DNA of 64,000 bases from positions 1 to 64,000 of the forward strand of contig MWCO01000006.1 in NCBI GenBank assembly GCA_002070115.1, in the 5' to 3' direction. The notes beneath the pieces were generated by a model that saw nothing but the letters and a program-made list of their open reading frames with translations, searched no databases and was not told the origin of the DNA. Below, piece after piece: positions 23,356 to 31,285 of this stretch. Each line of letters begins with the position of its first letter. Positions within the stretch are counted from its first letter, which is position 1. The stretch comes from Deltaproteobacteria bacterium ADurb.Bin207. GTDB taxonomy: Bacteria > Myxococcota_A > Polyangia > Polyangiales > Polyangiaceae. Position numbers and translations under genes: made by a program.

Positions 23356-24861
23356 ATGCGCCCTTACCGCTTGCGACGTATGCTTGCCGAGTTGCCGTAT
23401 TGGCTCGTGGCCCTTGGCGCATCCGCTCCCGCCTGGATCGTCAAGTATCCCCCGATCCAAGATCTTCCGTACCATGTAGCTACCATTCGCGTGCTGCACA
23501 GCTTCCGGGATCCGTATTTTGGTTTTAGTCAACACTTCGAGCTTCACCTCGGTAACACCCACTATCTTCTATATTATTTGCTGGGCAGCGCGCTTGCCTA
23601 CGTGATCGGAGTCGCGTTCGCGAACGTGGTGTTGATGAGCACCTACTTCGCGGGCACTGTGCTTGCCCTTCGTTCGCTGCTGCTGGCGATGGGGCGGGAT
23701 GCAAGAATCAGCTTTTTTGTCGTCCCGTTGTTGACCAACGTCTTGTTCATCTACGGCCTGATGCCGTTTCTTCTTGGATTGCCGCTGATGTTTTGGGGCT
23801 TGTCGGTGGCGCTGCGCCATACGCGCAAACCTTGTTGGACGACAGGATTGCTATTGGCCGGTATCTCGGTAGCGTGTTTCTTCACCCATATCATCCCCTT
23901 CGGGCTGCTGGGGATCGGAATCGCGGCTGTTTTTCCTTGGTTTTCACCCACGCGATGGCTTCGGACTCTGGCTCCCGCACTACCCGCCTTGGCGCTTGTC
24001 ACGTGGTGGACCACAGCCACGGATGCGGGTCGAACCACGAAGGGCTTGCTCACGCAGGAAGCGGGAGTCCGCAAACTCGATGCCGCGCTATCGGAGATAC
24101 CCGCATGGTTCACCAACGTATTTCGCGATGATAGCGATGAGCGCTGGCTCATTATTTATGGTCTTTTGGTGATCGCAACCCTTGCCGTCGGGCTTGGGCA
24201 AAAGGAAAAATTGTTGCCGGGATCACGGCGTTACGCCTTGGTGCCGATCGCTTGCGTGGTTTTTTACTTCACGACGCCGGTGGGGCACGACTTCATCTGG
24301 CCGCTCGCGCAACGGTTTGCCATTCTGGTGGCCATCACCGCGATCCCGCTTCTTGCCTTTCCACGGGGATGGCGCGGCCACGTGCTCACCTTCGCTGCCC
24401 TCGTGGTCGCCGCGGGTTCGACGTTCGACACGGCTCGCCACTTCGTGCAGTTTCAACTCGAGGAAGTTGGCGATTTCGATGATGCCAAGGCGGTCATCGC
24501 AAACAACAGCAAGGTATGCACTCTCGTTTTCGACAAGGGATCGCAAATCACCCATCATCAACCGTTCATTCACTTCGGCTCCTGGGTGCAGGCGGAAAAG
24601 GGAGGCGTGGTGATGTTCACCTTCGCGGGCTATCCCCATTGGCCTTTCGATTTTCTACCGGGTCAAGCTCCCCCACCTGGAGGACCGGCCCGAAGACGAT
24701 GGGAGTGGACGCCCGAGCGCGTTCGAATGGAAGAAATATGGCCTTATTACGATTATGTCTTGGTGCGGGGGAGCGGATTTACCCCCGCCTCTACTCGTTT
24801 CGAAAAAGCCTATGACGGCGCACGATGGACGGTATGGAAGCGAGTGGGGCAAGGGACTTGA
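23356..24861 (+). CDS. Polytopic membrane protein, function unknown
   Basis: About 501 residues with roughly ten to eleven hydrophobic helices over residues 10-365 and a 110-residue C-terminal soluble part. The first extracytoplasmic loop carries YPPIQDLPYHVATIRVLHSF with an Asp, and the C-terminal region has HFGSWVQAEKGGVVMF. The layout recalls GT-C-type glycosyltransferases, but no diagnostic DD/DE motif is certain. ATG 23356 is chosen over an upstream TTG (23332). The gene overlaps or abuts the GluQ-like gene that follows. The 280-bp gap before it holds only the ISC hairpin. Confidence 0.7.
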   Translation: MRPYRLRRMLAELPYWLVALGASAPAWIVKYPPIQDLPYHVATIRVLHSFRDPYFGFSQHFELHLGNTHYLLYYLLGSALAYVIGVAFANVVLMSTYFAGTVLALRSLLLAMGRDARISFFVVPLLTNVLFIYGLMPFLLGLPLMFWGLSVALRHTRKPCWTTGLLLAGISVACFFTHIIPFGLLGIGIAAVFPWFSPTRWLRTLAPALPALALVTWWTTATDAGRTTKGLLTQEAGVRKLDAALSEIPAWFTNVFRDDSDERWLIIYGLLVIATLAVGLGQKEKLLPGSRRYALVPIACVVFYFTTPVGHDFIWPLAQRFAILVAITAIPLLAFPRGWRGHVLTFAALVVAAGSTFDTARHFVQFQLEEVGDFDDAKAVIANNSKVCTLVFDKGSQITHHQPFIHFGSWVQAEKGGVVMFTFAGYPHWPFDFLPGQAPPPGGPARRRWEWTPERVRMEEIWPYYDYVLVRGSGFTPASTRFEKAYDGARWTVWKRVGQGT

Positions 24862-25799
24862 ACGTGCGGTATCGCGGACGATTCGCGCCCTCCCCTACCG
24901 GCGACCTTCACCTGGGAGGAGCCTCGACCGCGCTATGCGCGTGGTTGGCGGCAAGATCCGTGGGAGGCTCAATCGTCCTGCGAATCGAGGATATCGACAC
25001 ACCGCGTGTACGGCCCGACAGCGAAAAACACATTCTCGAGGATTTGCGTTGGCTGGGGCTCGATTGGGATGAGGAACCAGAAGGGATACTTCACCAAAGT
25101 CAGCGAACGAGGGCGTATGAATCCGCTCTCCAACAACTCGAAAATGGTGGATTTACCTATCCCTGCGACTGTTCGCGCAAGGAGATCTCGCTGGCCAGCG
25201 CACCGTCCGGGAACGAAAAAACACCAATATATCCGGGCAGTTGCCGTCAACTCACGCAGTCCAGAAGCTTCCGACGCCCCCCGGCCACACGATTGCGCAT
25301 ACCACCCAATACCTTCATCGAATTCGAGGATGCCGTTTTCGGAAAACAGAGTTCTCAATTAAGCCAAGACGTCGGTGATTTTGTGTTGCGTCGGGGCGAT
25401 GGGGTATTTGCCTATCAGCTTGCCGTCGTGGTCGATGATCTCGCGCAGGGAATCACGCATGTGGTGCGCGGCGCGGACCTTCTTTCCTCAACTGCTCGTC
25501 AGATTTTCTTGATGCGCTGTTTGGGAACCGAACCGCCATCGTACGCGCATGCGCCGCTATGGGTCGGTCCAAACGGAGAAAAACTCGCCAAACGCGCGTC
25601 TGGAATTCCTGTTCGGGACCATCGTAACGCGGGCGTCGATCCTCGAAAGCTCATCGCGCGACTTGCGCAGGCGTTGGGTCTGGCAGACCAGAATGAGCCA
25701 TGGCTCACCCCCCATGAATTGATACCGCGCTTTTCTTGGGGAAAAATCACCAAAGGCCCAATCGAAATCGATCCGTCACGTGATAGTCTCCCCTTGTAG
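24825..25799 (+). CDS. gluQ: Glutamyl-Q tRNA(Asp) synthetase-like protein
   Basis: Resembles the catalytic core of glutamyl-tRNA synthetase without an anticodon domain, as in GluQ-RS, which attaches glutamate to the queuosine base of tRNA(Asp). Seen: RFAPSPTGDLHLGGASTALC (HIGH-like HLGG), RIEDIDTPRV, a YPCDCSRKEI segment resembling the zinc site of the family, YQLAVVVDDLAQGITHVVRG and EKLAKRASG (KMSKS-like KLAKR). Length 324 is slightly longer than the usual ~300. Starts at 24825, 24834 or a TTG at 24858 (overlapping the upstream stop) are all possible. Confidence 0.92.
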   Translation: MDGMEASGARDLNVRYRGRFAPSPTGDLHLGGASTALCAWLAARSVGGSIVLRIEDIDTPRVRPDSEKHILEDLRWLGLDWDEEPEGILHQSQRTRAYESALQQLENGGFTYPCDCSRKEISLASAPSGNEKTPIYPGSCRQLTQSRSFRRPPATRLRIPPNTFIEFEDAVFGKQSSQLSQDVGDFVLRRGDGVFAYQLAVVVDDLAQGITHVVRGADLLSSTARQIFLMRCLGTEPPSYAHAPLWVGPNGEKLAKRASGIPVRDHRNAGVDPRKLIARLAQALGLADQNEPWLTPHELIPRFSWGKITKGPIEIDPSRDSLPL

Positions 25800-25840: not shown

Positions 25841-26884
25841 ATGTCCACCTATGACATGAGCATCGTCCTCGATCGAAGCCCACCCGTGTATTCGCCAGGG
25901 GAGAGGATATCCGGGACGATTGTCGTCGTGGCCAATGAATCCTGCCGATGCGATGACTTGGCCGTCGATTTGTACTGGAAAACAAGTGGAAGGGGAAATA
26001 GCGATACCGAAGTCGTCGAACAGGAAACACTGGGGGCGTTCGAATGGCAGGAGGGTGAATCCTATCGGTACGCTTTTTCCTTTTCGGCGCCTCCGGGGCC
26101 CGTCAGCTATCAGGGAACGATCATCCACGTGGAGTGGTTCGTGGAAACCCGCGTGGACATGCCCTGGCGGAAACTCAGTGCAAACGCGTGTGAAACCATC
26201 ACGCTACAGCCTTCGACGGTCGAACGTGACACATCGGCCACCCAGCGCAAACAACCCTATCCATCGGCGTTCCCTGCTCTATCCGGCAATCCTCCCAGGG
26301 ATTTCTCAAAACCGAAAATACCTGTCGTGACGATCATCACCGGATTGATGCTGCTTGTGACGAACATATTCCTTGTGATCACCCGAGCGCACATTGGGCT
26401 CTTCCTTCTGCTGAACGCGCTTTTCCTCTCCGTCATGTCCACACTCAGTTGAAAAGAGCTGCGCAATCGATTCGCAAAACAGAGGTTGGGGAATCTGTCC
26501 ATCACGATCGATCCTTCCACCGCGACCCGGAGAGATACGTTGCGGGTTTGTGTCCATTTCACGCCCAAATCGAACGGACGACTTCGCTCCGCGAAGGCCA
26601 TTTTGCATGGTGAGGAAATCGCCTGGACGATGAGGGACACAGACGACAGCACTCGACACCAACACGATCTCGATAAAATCGAAGGGCAGATGTGCGAAGC
26701 CTTGCCCTTTTATCAAAACCAACCGCAGGAGCTATCCTGCGAGTTGCCCGTGCCAAACCATGCGGCTCCTTCCTTCGATTCGTCCAACAACTGCGTGCAG
26801 TGGAATCTCGAGATTCACCTACTCATCGAGAACTCGCCGGATCTGAAGGAAACCATTCCGATCACCCTACTGCCAAGCGCGTAA
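25841..26884 (+). pseudogene. Arrestin-like membrane protein, copy 1, split by TGA at a conserved Trp
   Basis: First of three tandem paralogues. The frame is interrupted at 26450-26452 by TGA and continues in the same frame to TAA at 26882-26884. If the TGA were sense, the product would be 347 residues, matching copy 2 (348). Aligned with copies 2 and 3, the TGA falls exactly on a Trp (TGG) that both others keep (KYDWDDLKN and KFAWNDLRN versus LS-stop-KELRN). Upstream part: arrestin-N-like beta-sandwich (VYSPGERISGTIVV, GPVSYQGTIIHVEWFVE) and a two-helix hairpin. Downstream part: second beta-sandwich (LSITIDPSTATRRDTLRV). A 203-residue anchored N-terminal domain may still be made; re-initiation at TTG 26486 is possible. 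Confidence 0.8.
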
Positions 26885-26950
26885 CCTGTTGATAATAAAC
26901 ACGTAATATCCAACCCTTCGCATCGGGAAAGCGAACACGGAAAGTGGCGT

Positions 26951-27067
26951 ATGCGCTCATGGATCCGTAGCGTCATCGGCATAAAACGGCACGCCCGTAT
27001 GTGGTAGATTGGAAAAGGGCATTGCTGTAAGCCTTGTTGGGTCCAACCGCTTGCTTCAGAAAACAAA
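26951..27067 (+). repeat. Leader repeat A upstream of arrestin-like copy 2
   Basis: Clearly alignable with 28181-28308 upstream of copy 3. Shared blocks include ATGCGCTCATGGATCC, GCGTCATCGGCA, GTGGTAGATTGGAA and CAGAAAACAAAATG at the gene start. So the duplication unit comprised the gene and its leader/promoter region. No good Shine-Dalgarno is visible before either ATG. Confidence 0.8.
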
Positions 27068-28114
27068 ATGTCTTCCTGTGACATAAGCATCCGCTTCGAC
27101 CGAAACCCACCCGCGTGTTCGCCGGGAGAAACGATCTCGGGAACGATTGACGTCGTCGCAAACGCATCCTGCCGATGCGATGCCTTGACCGCCCACTTGT
27201 CTTGGAAAACAAGCGGAAAAGGGGATACCGATTCAGAAAAAGTCGATGTCGTGCCCCTGGGGACGTTCGAATGGAAACGCGGTGAATCTTATCAATATCC
27301 TTTTTCGTTTCTTGCCCCTACCGGACCCGTCAGCTATCAGGGGCTGATCGTCCACGTGAATTGGTTCGTAGAGGCTCGCGCCGATGTGCCCTGGGCCATC
27401 GATCCACGCGCGAGCGAAACCCTCCTGCTGGTGCCTCTGCCAGCCGAACGCAAGGCATCGACAGCCTATCGCGAACAACCCCATCTATCCGCGAAGCATC
27501 ATAAACTCGGCAATCGTCCCAGATCCCAGTCGAAATGGGAAAACCGTGTCCTGATAATCATTCTCGGATTGGCCCTCTTGATATTGGCAATACTGCAACT
27601 AGCCGACAGCTCACCCAACCCCGGCATCATTATCGCGCTGTTCCTCCTATCCTTTCTATTCGGTGTCTCGGTCAAATACGATTGGGACGACTTGAAAAAT
27701 CTGGTGGCAAGACAGAGGGTGGGAAAGCTGTCCGTCACGATTGATCCTCCTACCGCAACACGGGGAGAGATATTGCGAATACAAGCTGCGTTTACTCCGA
27801 ACTCGAACGGCAAGCTTCGCTATGCCAAGGCCACCTTGTACGGCGAGGAAATCGCCTGGCGCGGGAGCGGAAAAAGCCGTACTCGCTATCACCAGGATCT
27901 CGACAGGGTCGAGGCGCAGATGTGCGGATCATCGGCGTTTTTTCAAAACCAACCCCTGGAACTGTCCTGCGACTTGCGAGTGCCGGAGTACGCAGCCTCT
28001 TCGTTCCGTTCCTTCAACAATCATGTGCAGTGGAGTGTCTTGCTTCACCTGGACATCGAAAACTGGCCGGATCTGAAAGAGACCATCCCCATCGATTTGT
28101 TGCCAAGCCTGTAA
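27068..28114 (+). CDS. Arrestin-like membrane protein, copy 2 (intact)
   Basis: A 348-residue protein. Residues about 1-120 form a beta-sandwich with arrestin-N hallmarks: CSPGETISGTIDVVANASC, a GKGDTDSE loop, GESYQYPFSFLAPTGPVSYQ, then HVNWFVEARADVPWAID. A basic linker (AKHHKLGNRPRSQSKWEN) leads to two hydrophobic helices at about 158-203 (LIIILGLALLILAILQL; IIIALFLLSFLFGV). Residues about 215-348 form a second sandwich of similar design (LSVTIDPPTATRGEILRIQA, VQWSVLLHLDIENWPDLKET). Both sandwiches probably face the cytoplasm, linked by a membrane hairpin. Function unknown; arrestin folds bind and sort membrane partners. Confidence 0.8.
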   Translation: MSSCDISIRFDRNPPACSPGETISGTIDVVANASCRCDALTAHLSWKTSGKGDTDSEKVDVVPLGTFEWKRGESYQYPFSFLAPTGPVSYQGLIVHVNWFVEARADVPWAIDPRASETLLLVPLPAERKASTAYREQPHLSAKHHKLGNRPRSQSKWENRVLIIILGLALLILAILQLADSSPNPGIIIALFLLSFLFGVSVKYDWDDLKNLVARQRVGKLSVTIDPPTATRGEILRIQAAFTPNSNGKLRYAKATLYGEEIAWRGSGKSRTRYHQDLDRVEAQMCGSSAFFQNQPLELSCDLRVPEYAASSFRSFNNHVQWSVLLHLDIENWPDLKETIPIDLLPSL

Positions 28115-28180
28115 CATATTGATTATAAACGAATTATATCCAGTACCTCGCTTCGATGATCCCAACGCGGCCACTGGCTC

Positions 28181-28308
28181 ATGCGCTCATGGATCCACGG
28201 CGTCATCGGCACGAACGGGCGCACTTGTGTGTGGTAGATTGGAACAGGCCTGGAACGGGCCATTGTCGAAAGCCTTGTCGAGTCCAACCACCCGCTCCAG
28301 AAAACAAA
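28181..28308 (+). repeat. Leader repeat B upstream of arrestin-like copy 3
   Basis: Counterpart of 26951-27067, ending in the same CAGAAAACAAA before ATG. It differs mainly by small insertions, showing that the leader was duplicated with the gene. Confidence 0.8.
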
Positions 28309-29346
28309 ATGGCTTCCTGTAACATAAGCATCCGCTTCGACCGAAACCCACCCGTGTATTCGCCAGGAGACACGATCTCGGGAACGATTGACGTCGTCGC
28401 AAACGCATCCTGCCACTGCGATGCCTTGGTCCCCCACTTGTGTTGGAAAACAGGCGGAAAAGGGGATACCGATTCAGAAAAATACGTTCATGAATCCCTG
28501 GGGACGTTCGATTGGAACCCCGGTGAATCCTATCAATATCCTTTTTCGTTCGTTGCGCCTGCAGGACCCGTCAGCTATCAGGGATCGATCGTCCACGTGA
28601 ATTGGTTCGTGGAGGCTCGCGCCGATGTGCCCTGGGCCATCGATCCACGCGCGAGCGAACCCCTCATGCTGCTGCCTCTGGCGGCCGAACGCAAGGCATC
28701 GGCAGCCTATCGCGAACAACCCCATCTATCCGCAAAGCATCATAAACTCGGCAATGGTCCCAGATCCCAGTCGAAATGGGAAAACCGTGTCCTGACGCTC
28801 ATCCTCGGATCGATCTTCTTGGTATTGGCAATAGCGCAACAAACCATCCACGGATCCTCCGTCCCTTTCCTGATCCCGATGGTCTTCGTCGCCGGTGTCA
28901 TGCTCAAATTCGCCTGGAACGACTTGAGAAATCTGGTGGCAAGACGGATGGTGGGAGCGCTATCTGTCACGATCGATCCTCCCACCGCGACTCGGGGAGA
29001 GACGTTGCGAATACAAGCCGCGTTCACTCCAAACTCGAACGGAAGGCTTCGCTATGCCAAAGCCACCTTGTACGGTGAGGAAATCGCCTGGCGCGGGAGC
29101 GGAAAAAGCCGTACTCGCTATCACCAGGATCTCGACAAGATCGATGCGGAGCTGTGTGGATCATTGGCATTTTTTCAAAACCAACCCCTGGAACTGTCCT
29201 GCGACTTGCAAGTGCCGGAGCACGCGGCCCCTTCGTTCCGATCGGTCAACAATCGTGTGCAGTGGAGTGTCTTGCTTCATCTGGACATCAAGGGTTGGCC
29301 CGACATGAAGGAAACCATCCCCATCGACTTGCACCCAAGCTCGTAA
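28309..29346 (+). CDS. Arrestin-like membrane protein, copy 3 (intact)
   Basis: A 345-residue paralogue of copy 2 with the same plan: arrestin-like sandwich, basic linker, two membrane helices, second sandwich. The N-terminal domain, linker and C-terminal domain share long identical runs with copy 2 (for example VHVNWFVEARADVPWAIDPR and FTPNSNG), whereas the membrane hairpin (LGSIFLVLAIAQQ ... FLIPMVFVAGVMLKFAW) is clearly different. The start at ATG 28309 matches copy 2; an in-frame ATG at 28156 lies in the leader and is rejected. The conserved Trp after the second helix is TGG. Confidence 0.8.
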   Translation: MASCNISIRFDRNPPVYSPGDTISGTIDVVANASCHCDALVPHLCWKTGGKGDTDSEKYVHESLGTFDWNPGESYQYPFSFVAPAGPVSYQGSIVHVNWFVEARADVPWAIDPRASEPLMLLPLAAERKASAAYREQPHLSAKHHKLGNGPRSQSKWENRVLTLILGSIFLVLAIAQQTIHGSSVPFLIPMVFVAGVMLKFAWNDLRNLVARRMVGALSVTIDPPTATRGETLRIQAAFTPNSNGRLRYAKATLYGEEIAWRGSGKSRTRYHQDLDKIDAELCGSLAFFQNQPLELSCDLQVPEHAAPSFRSVNNRVQWSVLLHLDIKGWPDMKETIPIDLHPSS

Positions 29347-29561
29347 GCTATTGATAATCAATATTTAAATACTGGTACCACGCTATCATGAACAAGGGAT
29401 AGACTCGTATCCAATCGTCCTCATCAAAGGTGCAATCGGCACTGGATGGGAGCGCAACATGGCATCTTTGCCGTGAAAATGCCTGCCTCTACGTGGTAGA
29501 AGCAAAGGCACCGTGGTGGAGTAACCCTGTCGGGGCCGTGTTATCACCGCTTGGTCTCCCC

Positions 29562-29620
29562 CTTGAAAGAAACCATCCCCCTCACCTCGCCCAAAAGACT
29601 CGTAACCTATCGATTATACG
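29562..29620 (+). pseudogene. 3' remnant of a fourth arrestin-like copy
   Basis: In one frame this reads LKETIPLTSPKRL, then GTAACCTATCGATTATA. It aligns with the last codons and trailing sequence of all three copies (LKETIPI, stop, then GTAAC-TATTGAT-ATA). Upstream, TACGTGGTAGAAGCAAAG around 29490 resembles the GTGGTAGATTGGAA block of the leader repeats. So leader and 3' end appear brought together by deletion of the gene body. The remaining gap sequence (29347-29632) shows nothing else. Confidence 0.6.
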
Positions 29621-29632
29621 CGCTTTTATGAG

Positions 29633-31285
29633 TCAAGGATGCGTATAAACCAACGTTCCCCCACGAAGCTGCAACCGACCGTGCCACCCTTCTGGCACCT
29701 CCGGATCCGTCCAGCCGAACAACCATGCCGCATCATAAGGCGATAAATTGATGCACCCATGCGATCGCGGCGTCCCAAAACCGTCGTGCCAATACGCCCC
29801 GTGAAGCGCATATCCCTCATGGAAAAACTGCACGAAAGGCACATCCTGAAGGTCATACACATCCCCAGGCTCATCGTTGCTCATGGTCGCCGATACGTGT
29901 TTGGTGTGAATCAAAAACGCGCCAAGCACGGTCGAATGCGTTTCTTTCGGATCGCCAAGACCATCGGCTCCCGTGGAAACCATCGTCGCAAACACCGGAC
30001 GTGTTCCCTCATACGCCACGAGCGTCTGACGAAGAATGGATACATCGATCCATTTTCGGCCAGCTTTGGCCCATGAGGGGACTTCCTGGAGGGCCGGAAC
30101 GATCACCATACGGGGCCCTTCCCGCAAAAACGTTCCCTCTTTCGTCTCGAGATACACGTTTTCCCCCGCGCGAACACGCCGCCCCGTCAGAGAAAAGCCT
30201 TCCCGAAAACGAACCTCCCCCGCGTCTTGCACCGCCCGCGTCTCGAGATCGATCCGATACTGCCGAACGCCGTGCGCATGCACGAAGGCGAGGGGCAAGC
30301 CTTGATCCTCGACGAGATGGGTTCCCACCATCGTCGAGCGGACAACAGCTTTGGTGCGGTCGAGGGGAATCAGATCGAGGTCCGTCGTGACGCCAAACAC
30401 CCGGTCTGTCCAGGAAAAGACTTGTAACAAACCAAAGCCGGTGCGCGGCACGGGACGTCCGGTGTGCAGGATGCCTTGCGGACGCGGTTTGGCGTGAGGA
30501 GAGGGCAAGGATCGTTGATAAAGCAGGGAACCGGGAACATCTCCGAGCAAGCTTTCCCATGCGGAAAGGTCCTTGCCTCGTTGGCGGTGTTTGGCGAGAT
30601 CCGGTTCTACCTCTTGTTGTTCGGCTTCCGTGGGCAAACGAACGTAGCGTGGGGGAGGTGGATAATCCGCCATGACCACGGGATAGGGCATTGCCAATCC
30701 GCGGTTCGGAGGGTGTCCCGCGGCCTCGGCCATCGGGTGGTGCTTCTCTAATGTGGCGGATTTTCCAACACATACGAAGCCTTGGGGCTCGATTGGATAC
30801 CACCCTTGTTGGCAATGCTTGAAGCCAGCGGGATGCTCGTGACGACGAACGGACATGCCCGCACGGAGGTATCCGATGCGGCGCGATCCCCACTTGGGCT
30901 CCGCAAAAATCCAGGTTTCCTTTCGCAGGGCCACGAGTTCGAAGGCTTGCTGTGGGGGGGGAATCGGTTCTTCGGCCAATTCGCGTTCGTTTTCGGTCTC
31001 GTCGATGGGTTCGACTTCGATTTCACCCGTGGCCGCCTCGAGATCCGAAGGGGAAGGTTCTTCGACGGATGGTTCTTGGCCTTCGGACAGAGGCTCCGCC
31101 GACAACGGCGTGTCGAATACGACAAGGGGCTCCTCTATCGTGGCTGGTGCTTCTGCAACCGCGATGGGTTCCGCGGGCCCTGCCGCAGCCGTATCTTGTT
31201 GCCAACCAGCGGGGGGACAACTCAGGCCAATAGCGGCAAAAACCGACGCTGTCATCGTGAGTAAGCGACCGGGAACACGAGGCAT
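29633..31285 (-). CDS. L,D-transpeptidase (YkuD) exported protein
   Basis: A 550-residue exported peptidoglycan enzyme. N-terminal signal with a possible lipobox GLSC near residue 23, then a long Glu/Pro/Ala-rich linker (to about 110), an SH3-like segment (ALRKETWIFAEPKWGSRRIG), a middle domain, and a C-terminal YkuD catalytic domain with HGAYWHDGFG and the nucleophile motif RSHGCINLSPYDA. It would form L,D cross-links or attach proteins to peptidoglycan. The domain preceding the catalytic part (residues about 240-420) is not named here. Same strand as the hypothetical gene at 31383. Confidence 0.93.
   Translation of the reverse strand: MPRVPGRLLTMTASVFAAIGLSCPPAGWQQDTAAAGPAEPIAVAEAPATIEEPLVVFDTPLSAEPLSEGQEPSVEEPSPSDLEAATGEIEVEPIDETENERELAEEPIPPPQQAFELVALRKETWIFAEPKWGSRRIGYLRAGMSVRRHEHPAGFKHCQQGWYPIEPQGFVCVGKSATLEKHHPMAEAAGHPPNRGLAMPYPVVMADYPPPPRYVRLPTEAEQQEVEPDLAKHRQRGKDLSAWESLLGDVPGSLLYQRSLPSPHAKPRPQGILHTGRPVPRTGFGLLQVFSWTDRVFGVTTDLDLIPLDRTKAVVRSTMVGTHLVEDQGLPLAFVHAHGVRQYRIDLETRAVQDAGEVRFREGFSLTGRRVRAGENVYLETKEGTFLREGPRMVIVPALQEVPSWAKAGRKWIDVSILRQTLVAYEGTRPVFATMVSTGADGLGDPKETHSTVLGAFLIHTKHVSATMSNDEPGDVYDLQDVPFVQFFHEGYALHGAYWHDGFGTPRSHGCINLSPYDAAWLFGWTDPEVPEGWHGRLQLRGGTLVYTHP

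Follow-up and report, generated by a model that had tools for sequence, protein, structure and literature searches.

A tandem array of predicted membrane-anchored arrestin-clan proteins in a Polyangiaceae genome, and the P-loop NTPase linked to its relatives

Why would a bacterium carry, one behind the other, several copies of a gene whose product looks like an arrestin with a membrane hairpin between its two lobes? In eukaryotes, arrestins and VPS26 play central parts in controlling receptors and in membrane traffic, and their prokaryotic relatives have been little studied, Spo0M being the best known. The genes in question lie in a stretch of 64,000 nucleotides (hereafter the window; positions 1-64,000 of contig MWCO01000006.1, assembly GCA_002070115.1) from Deltaproteobacteria bacterium ADurb.Bin207, whose genome measures 6.55 Mb and is 97% complete. 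At 25841-29346 the window holds three same-strand, head-to-tail paralogues, followed by some 260 bp that remain of a fourth, gutted unit. We find that this array represents local expansion within a broader family whose members occur mostly as single copies or in pairs, so that the array is not the essence of the family, and that in relatives the gene is often linked to a small P-loop nucleoside triphosphatase (NTPase), a trait that we regard as the most informative of the family although it was not detected in this genome.

The array and its predicted arrestin fold

The units of the array repeat with a period of about 1.23 kb (spacing 1227-1241 bp), and their in-register DNA identity of 65-88% across hundreds of bases is far above chance. 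Copy 2 (27068-28114, plus strand, 348 aa) and copy 3 (28309-29346, plus strand, 345 aa) are intact and encode proteins 78% identical to each other; copy 1 (25841-26884, plus strand) is about 54% identical. Protein searches within the genome connected the copies at E values of 2e-184 and 2e-111 and returned no further copy beyond the array. Copy 1 comprises the same N-terminal arrestin lobe (ArrN), hairpin and C-terminal arrestin lobe (ArrC), and is interrupted at 26450-26452 by one in-frame TGA in place of the TGG (W) codon of the other two. Recoding of TGA was ruled out as an explanation: TGA is the commonest stop codon among the long open reading frames of the window (17 of 33), and the TGA of copy 1 is therefore a nonsense codon. 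Copy 1 is thus a probable pseudogene or split gene.

Arrestin signatures are readily detected in the proteins. Arrestin_N (PF00339) passes its Pfam cut-off of 24.9 bits in all three copies, with 33.9, 39.0 (copy 3) and 33.8 bits (N half of copy 1), and Arrestin_C (PF02752) scores 22.3 and, in copy 3, 26.9 bits, slightly below its cut-off of 27.7 bits. Across a 61-sequence alignment of the family, Pfam at E<=0.01 recognised Arrestin_N in 43 members and Arrestin_C in 26. Compared with solved structures by sequence alone, the family profile matched TXNIP best (5.5e-12), then ARRDC3 (1.9e-10), VPS26C (3e-7) and Spo0M (5e-7). The Pfam family of Spo0M (PF07070) scored 14.2 and 15.8 bits in the window copies, under its cut-off of 23 bits, and DUF3592 (PF12158) gave no match in them at E<=10. 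A scan of genome contigs with one protein as the query returned no match.

We built an AlphaFold2 (AF2) model of copy 2 from the 61-sequence alignment and compared its fold with known structures by VIA-align. The model (pLDDT 88.9, pTM 0.81) consists of two arrestin-type beta-sandwich lobes with a two-helix hydrophobic hairpin between them: a strand lobe at residues 4-121, a poorly defined linker at 137-155, helices at 157-180 and 185-204, a juxtamembrane helix at 206-218 and a second strand lobe at 221-344. We accordingly delimit ArrN as residues 1-122, the hairpin as about 157-204 (27536-27679, plus strand) and ArrC as about 219-348; in copy 3, the hairpin is placed at 28777-28914 (plus strand) from hydropathy, charge and comparison with copy 2. 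The best whole-chain match of the model was the retromer subunit VPS26 (5f0m_B; Z 17.9, 250 residues), arrestins matched with a Z of about 14, and Spo0M (5cl2) superposed on the N lobe with a Z of 15.3 at 2.2 A over 121 residues. A single-sequence AF2 model was poor (pLDDT 43.7), and the Foldseek search made from it served merely as a hint. Taken together, two arrestin beta-sandwich lobes in tandem are confidently predicted, resembling arrestin, VPS26 and Spo0M across both lobes, and the hairpin helices are likewise predicted with good support.

In each of the three copies, both hairpin helices score above 1.9 on the Kyte-Doolittle scale across 19 residues (range 1.9-3.1). The lysine and arginine residues around the copy 2 hairpin follow a positive-inside pattern, with 5 in the N-terminal flank, 0 in the loop and 4 in the C-terminal flank; the corresponding means over 31 homologues are 1.8, 0.6 and 3.1. 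The proteins have no predicted signal peptide and no hydrophobic N terminus. Together with the absence of a signal peptide, this distribution of charges predicts that both lobes lie in the cytosol. An earlier note on this DNA had described three head-to-tail paralogues plus a remnant, each with two beta-sandwich domains bearing arrestin-N signatures and joined by a two-helix membrane hairpin. The coordinates, the 1.23-kb period, the identities and the remnant alignments given below bear out the arrangement; Pfam, the family profile and the AF2 model, including the comparison with arrestin and Spo0M folds that the note had proposed, agree with it on the domains; and the hairpin holds as a prediction from AF2 helices, hydropathy and charge.

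Copies 2 and 3 have diverged to different degrees along their length. The ratio of nonsynonymous to synonymous divergence (dN/dS) is 0.27 in the C lobe, with 27 nonsynonymous changes over 326 sites against 27 synonymous changes over 100 (p 4e-6), indicative of purifying selection; at least the C lobe has therefore been kept as protein. The N lobe has a dN/dS of 0.85. The hairpin is the fastest-diverging segment between the two copies (dN 0.61, dS 0.21; p 0.02, uncorrected), with a nearly identical linker, and this fast change may reflect relaxed constraint or an alignment error around a 3-codon gap. At the DNA level, the two hairpins are about 49% identical in one 25-codon window, and other windows reach 80-97%.

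Relatives, recurrent duplication and the NTPase

The survey of homologues for copy number and neighbours suggested in the earlier note was carried out, and it returned a family found mostly singly or in pairs, with an NTPase gene adjoining in relatives. Profile matches at E<=1e-8 were obtained in 43 of 379 genomes, a count that covers Myxococcota classes beyond that of the window and includes soluble and split types. Fused homologues present as one copy were found elsewhere in the order, both in a genus with large genomes (11-13 Mb; G014, G159-G161, G163) and in G006, G177 and G112, and the fused ArrN-hairpin-ArrC protein is present again in other Myxococcota classes. Four further genomes carry tandem pairs, at five loci in all (L150, L151, L153, L155, L156). 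Four of these pairs consist of two full copies; each of the four is monophyletic, as are the three copies of the window (support 0.98-1.0), and duplication looks recurrent and independent within the present sampling.

In five Polyangiaceae genomes the family takes a split form, a four-transmembrane (TM) protein with ArrC as its last domain and a separate ArrN protein of about 120 residues. Beside the split lobes, at 5 Polyangiaceae loci, lies a gene for a P-loop NTPase of about 190 residues; in the Polyangiales genome G102, the lobes share one frame in reverse order (ArrC then ArrN) with the NTPase downstream. A search that started from the NTPase alone led to 8 loci in Planctomycetota, 6 of which have the order TM-ArrC, ArrN, NTPase, and at L129, the one such locus tested, the TM protein also has DUF3592. 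In Myxococcota outside Polyangiales, 28 loci with the fused gene were fetched, and at 11 of them a second NTPase subtype adjoins it. The two genes usually overlap there, by 1-122 nt depending on the start codons chosen; L165 has a gap of 799 nt and L156 one of 92 nt, and at L161 the arrestin gene comes first and the NTPase second. Since NTPase loci were found from the arrestin and arrestin loci from the NTPase, the linkage is seen from either gene.

The NTPase is the sole non-kinase genuine gene family that recurs widely around the modules, and it matches AAA_22, AAA_16 and nSTAND, all weakly. In the genome of the window neither subtype was found at E<=1e-3 / 1e-4, the neighbours of the array being gluQ and an L,D-transpeptidase. 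The window copies align over their full length by profile with module members, and in the tree they group with the NTPase-linked L169 and L170, though through a deep branch of the unreliable kind.

Protein kinases, present at 10 loci, were considered as a recurrent third gene of the module and set aside, since kinases are generically abundant in these bacteria. At L157:4688-7380 (G310), two Ser/Thr protein kinase genes lead into the NTPase gene with a 4-nt overlap and the arrestin gene follows, which suggests a kinase-kinase-NTPase-arrestin operon in that genome. In the Polyangiaceae split modules L041, L082 and L083, the genes directly after ArrC, ArrN and NTPase encode a protein resembling TerB and a small GTPase resembling MglA (Pfam, L041), and an MglA-like sequence is also close to the fused module in L162. 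The planctomycete loci L123 and L130 have the NTPase without a recognisable adjacent arrestin gene. In G235 and G368, NTPase genes with strong profile scores (L191, G235:C50; L192, G368:C46) lie on contigs that do not carry the arrestin genes, and their short flanks hold no arrestin open reading frame. Many Polyangiales genomes also encode a separate arrestin-like protein of about 600 residues (L014-L030, e.g. L024, and L044), with two arrestin lobes, mostly no predicted TM segment and an extended C-terminal part whose last residues are often YR.

Comparison with known systems and possible function

Spo0M of B. subtilis (PDB 5cl2) is the bacterial member of the arrestin clan that superposes so closely on the N lobe of copy 2, yet the window copies stay below its Pfam cut-off. 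Spo0M is soluble and has no membrane hairpin, and we know of no NTPase partner for it. Alvarez in 2008 assigned Spo0M to the arrestin clan and proposed that it acts in signalling (PMC2515105); a 2017 study links it to cell division and reports interaction with cytoskeletal and division proteins (PMC5325327). The alpha-arrestins TXNIP and ARRDC3 and the beta/visual arrestins (PF00339 plus PF02752) have the same two lobes in the same order. PPxY motifs in the C-terminal tail of alpha-arrestins bind NEDD4-type ligases, whereas the window proteins lack this regulatory tail, stopping directly after the ArrC lobe, and carry a two-helix hydrophobic hairpin of about 45 residues at the lobe hinge. Copies 1 and 3 have a PPVY at residues 14-17, within the N lobe, and copy 2 is without it. 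VPS26, a subunit of retromer and retriever, is the best whole-chain fold match, yet its lobes are oriented differently (overall root-mean-square deviation 7.5 A); it has no TM segment and acts in a complex with VPS35 and VPS29. The planctomycete operon of DUF3592 type (PF12158) shares the ArrC lobe and the hairpin before it, with a separate ArrN gene and an adjacent P-loop NTPase. It differs in that each lobe is a polypeptide of its own and that the hairpin at L129 is preceded by an additional DUF3592 domain and more TM helices; the L129 ArrN gene falls below the Pfam arrestin cut-off and is unnamed in NCBIfam.

A search of the accessible literature, which excludes subscription journals and preprints, found no membrane-integral bacterial arrestin or NTPase partner, no paper joining DUF3592 with arrestin, nothing under "bacterial arrestin" or like phrases and nothing relevant for arrestin with Myxococcota or Planctomycetes. 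Within this literature, the contention of the earlier note that tandem membrane-linked arrestins of this plan are no known system stands. The family belongs to the known arrestin clan, and it is plausible that the module itself is undescribed.

The reading we favour, although we put its chances at about even, is that the window encodes membrane-tethered cytosolic adaptors of the arrestin clan, ancestrally coupled to the NTPase and duplicated here without it. Each intact copy would be an integral inner-membrane protein with two cytosolic arrestin lobes and the hairpin at the inter-lobe hinge as its tether; the lobes would form a clamp that grips a partner, either in the cytosol or in the membrane, while its hinge is fixed at the bilayer. 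Such a role is suggested by the mode of action of arrestins and VPS26 and by the placement of the hairpin between the lobes. In the ancestral module, the small cytosolic P-loop NTPase from the same operon would control the clamp or receive clients from it; gene overlap and repeated linkage suggest that it powers or gates the clamp in relatives. The genome of the window would have lost the NTPase or never acquired it, and unequal crossing-over may have amplified the adaptor gene into the three-copy array, one copy then being interrupted and a fourth deleted. In its broadest form, which we rate a shade below even, the proposal is of an undescribed membrane-integral arrestin module of Myxococcota and Planctomycetota, a hinge-anchored clamp, fused or split and run by a dedicated small P-loop NTPase, of which the window would hold an NTPase-free, amplified offshoot. 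If true, this would be a bacterial counterpart of arrestin- and retromer-style adaptors. A hinge-anchored, NTPase-linked protein of the arrestin clan would offer a testable bacterial arrestin system; both phyla have unusually complex cell biology, and the module would bear on the origin of eukaryotic adaptor proteins.

Several observations weigh against this proposal. Outside Polyangiales, 17 of the 28 loci with a fused gene, some of them on short contigs, have no NTPase close by, and neither subtype was detected in other Polyangiaceae with fused genes; dependence on the NTPase is therefore not universal. With the window genome 97% complete, loss of the NTPase there is unproven. Some relatives (e.g. 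G006, G411, G206) have a weak hairpin or a single helix, and membrane anchoring is thus not strictly conserved. The tree was computed with FastTree from short, divergent sequences, which makes its deep branches unreliable, and we found no experiment on any family member. The missing NTPases fit a different account, that the proteins are stand-alone membrane scaffolds like Spo0M that position cytoskeletal, division or signalling proteins, the NTPase being a separate partner in some lineages. The closeness of the Spo0M fold to the N lobe and its reported contacts agree with this account, whereas the sub-threshold Spo0M scores do not, and the gene overlap and the NTPase linkage, which recurs in two phyla and with the lobes split as well as fused, favour a coupled ancestral function; we regard the scaffold as unlikely, albeit the most credible of the rivals.

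The nonsense codon in copy 1 and the gutted fourth unit raise the question of whether the array is a drifted duplication in a decaying, presently functionless gene family. Copies 2 and 3 are intact, however, and their C lobes are under the constraint described above, which renders decay improbable. Slightly less probable still is a diversifying recognition system, in conflict or kin recognition, whose hairpins or lobes vary to follow changing partners. Recurrent tandem duplication and the excess of dN over dS in the hairpin beside an almost unchanged linker would suit it, but the high dN of the membrane helices is explicable by relaxed constraint or by misalignment at the 3-codon gap; moreover, in a search for known defence systems with PADLOC the arrestin proteins had no match and the NTPases matched only weakly, at the level of the P-loop, and no relative was found on plasmids or phages, so that a mobile origin likewise gains no support. 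Beta-sandwich folds are easily confused, and the single-sequence model was poor, so the proteins might conceivably have another immunoglobulin-like fold and be exported to the surface. We consider this very improbable, as Pfam, the profile comparison with PDB structures and the confident model agree on arrestin, no signal peptide is present and the charges place the lobes inside.

Unit boundaries and neighbouring genes

The spacer between copies 1 and 2 (26885-27067, plus strand) contains the 3' tail of copy 1 and the leader of copy 2, and is common to unit 3, where the equivalent segment lies at 28115-28308 (plus strand). Downstream of copy 3, a leader-like piece (29347-29563, plus strand) aligns locally to leader 2 with a score of 42, above all of 500 shuffles (mean 19.5, maximum 36), and to leader 3 with a score of 33, slightly below the best shuffle (34). 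It adjoins a gene 3' end (29564-29605, plus strand) recognised by repeat comparison, 79% identical at 32.8 bits, where 200 shuffles reached 26.5 at best. With these two pieces side by side, the fourth unit has lost its middle, the intervening coding part being deleted. Copy 1 has no such leader and starts 41 bp after gluQ. The claim that duplicated leaders show copying of the whole cassette is accordingly sustained for units 2 and 3 and the remnant, but not for the upstream side of copy 1.

The leader gave no Rfam match as an RNA element, and counts of promoters and terminators do not exceed those in shuffled sequences. The array is flanked downstream by the L,D-transpeptidase gene (29633-31285, minus strand) and upstream by gluQ (24825-25799). 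Synteny with gluQ is not conserved in relatives; G041, from another family, has one soluble-type arrestin gene beside gluQ.

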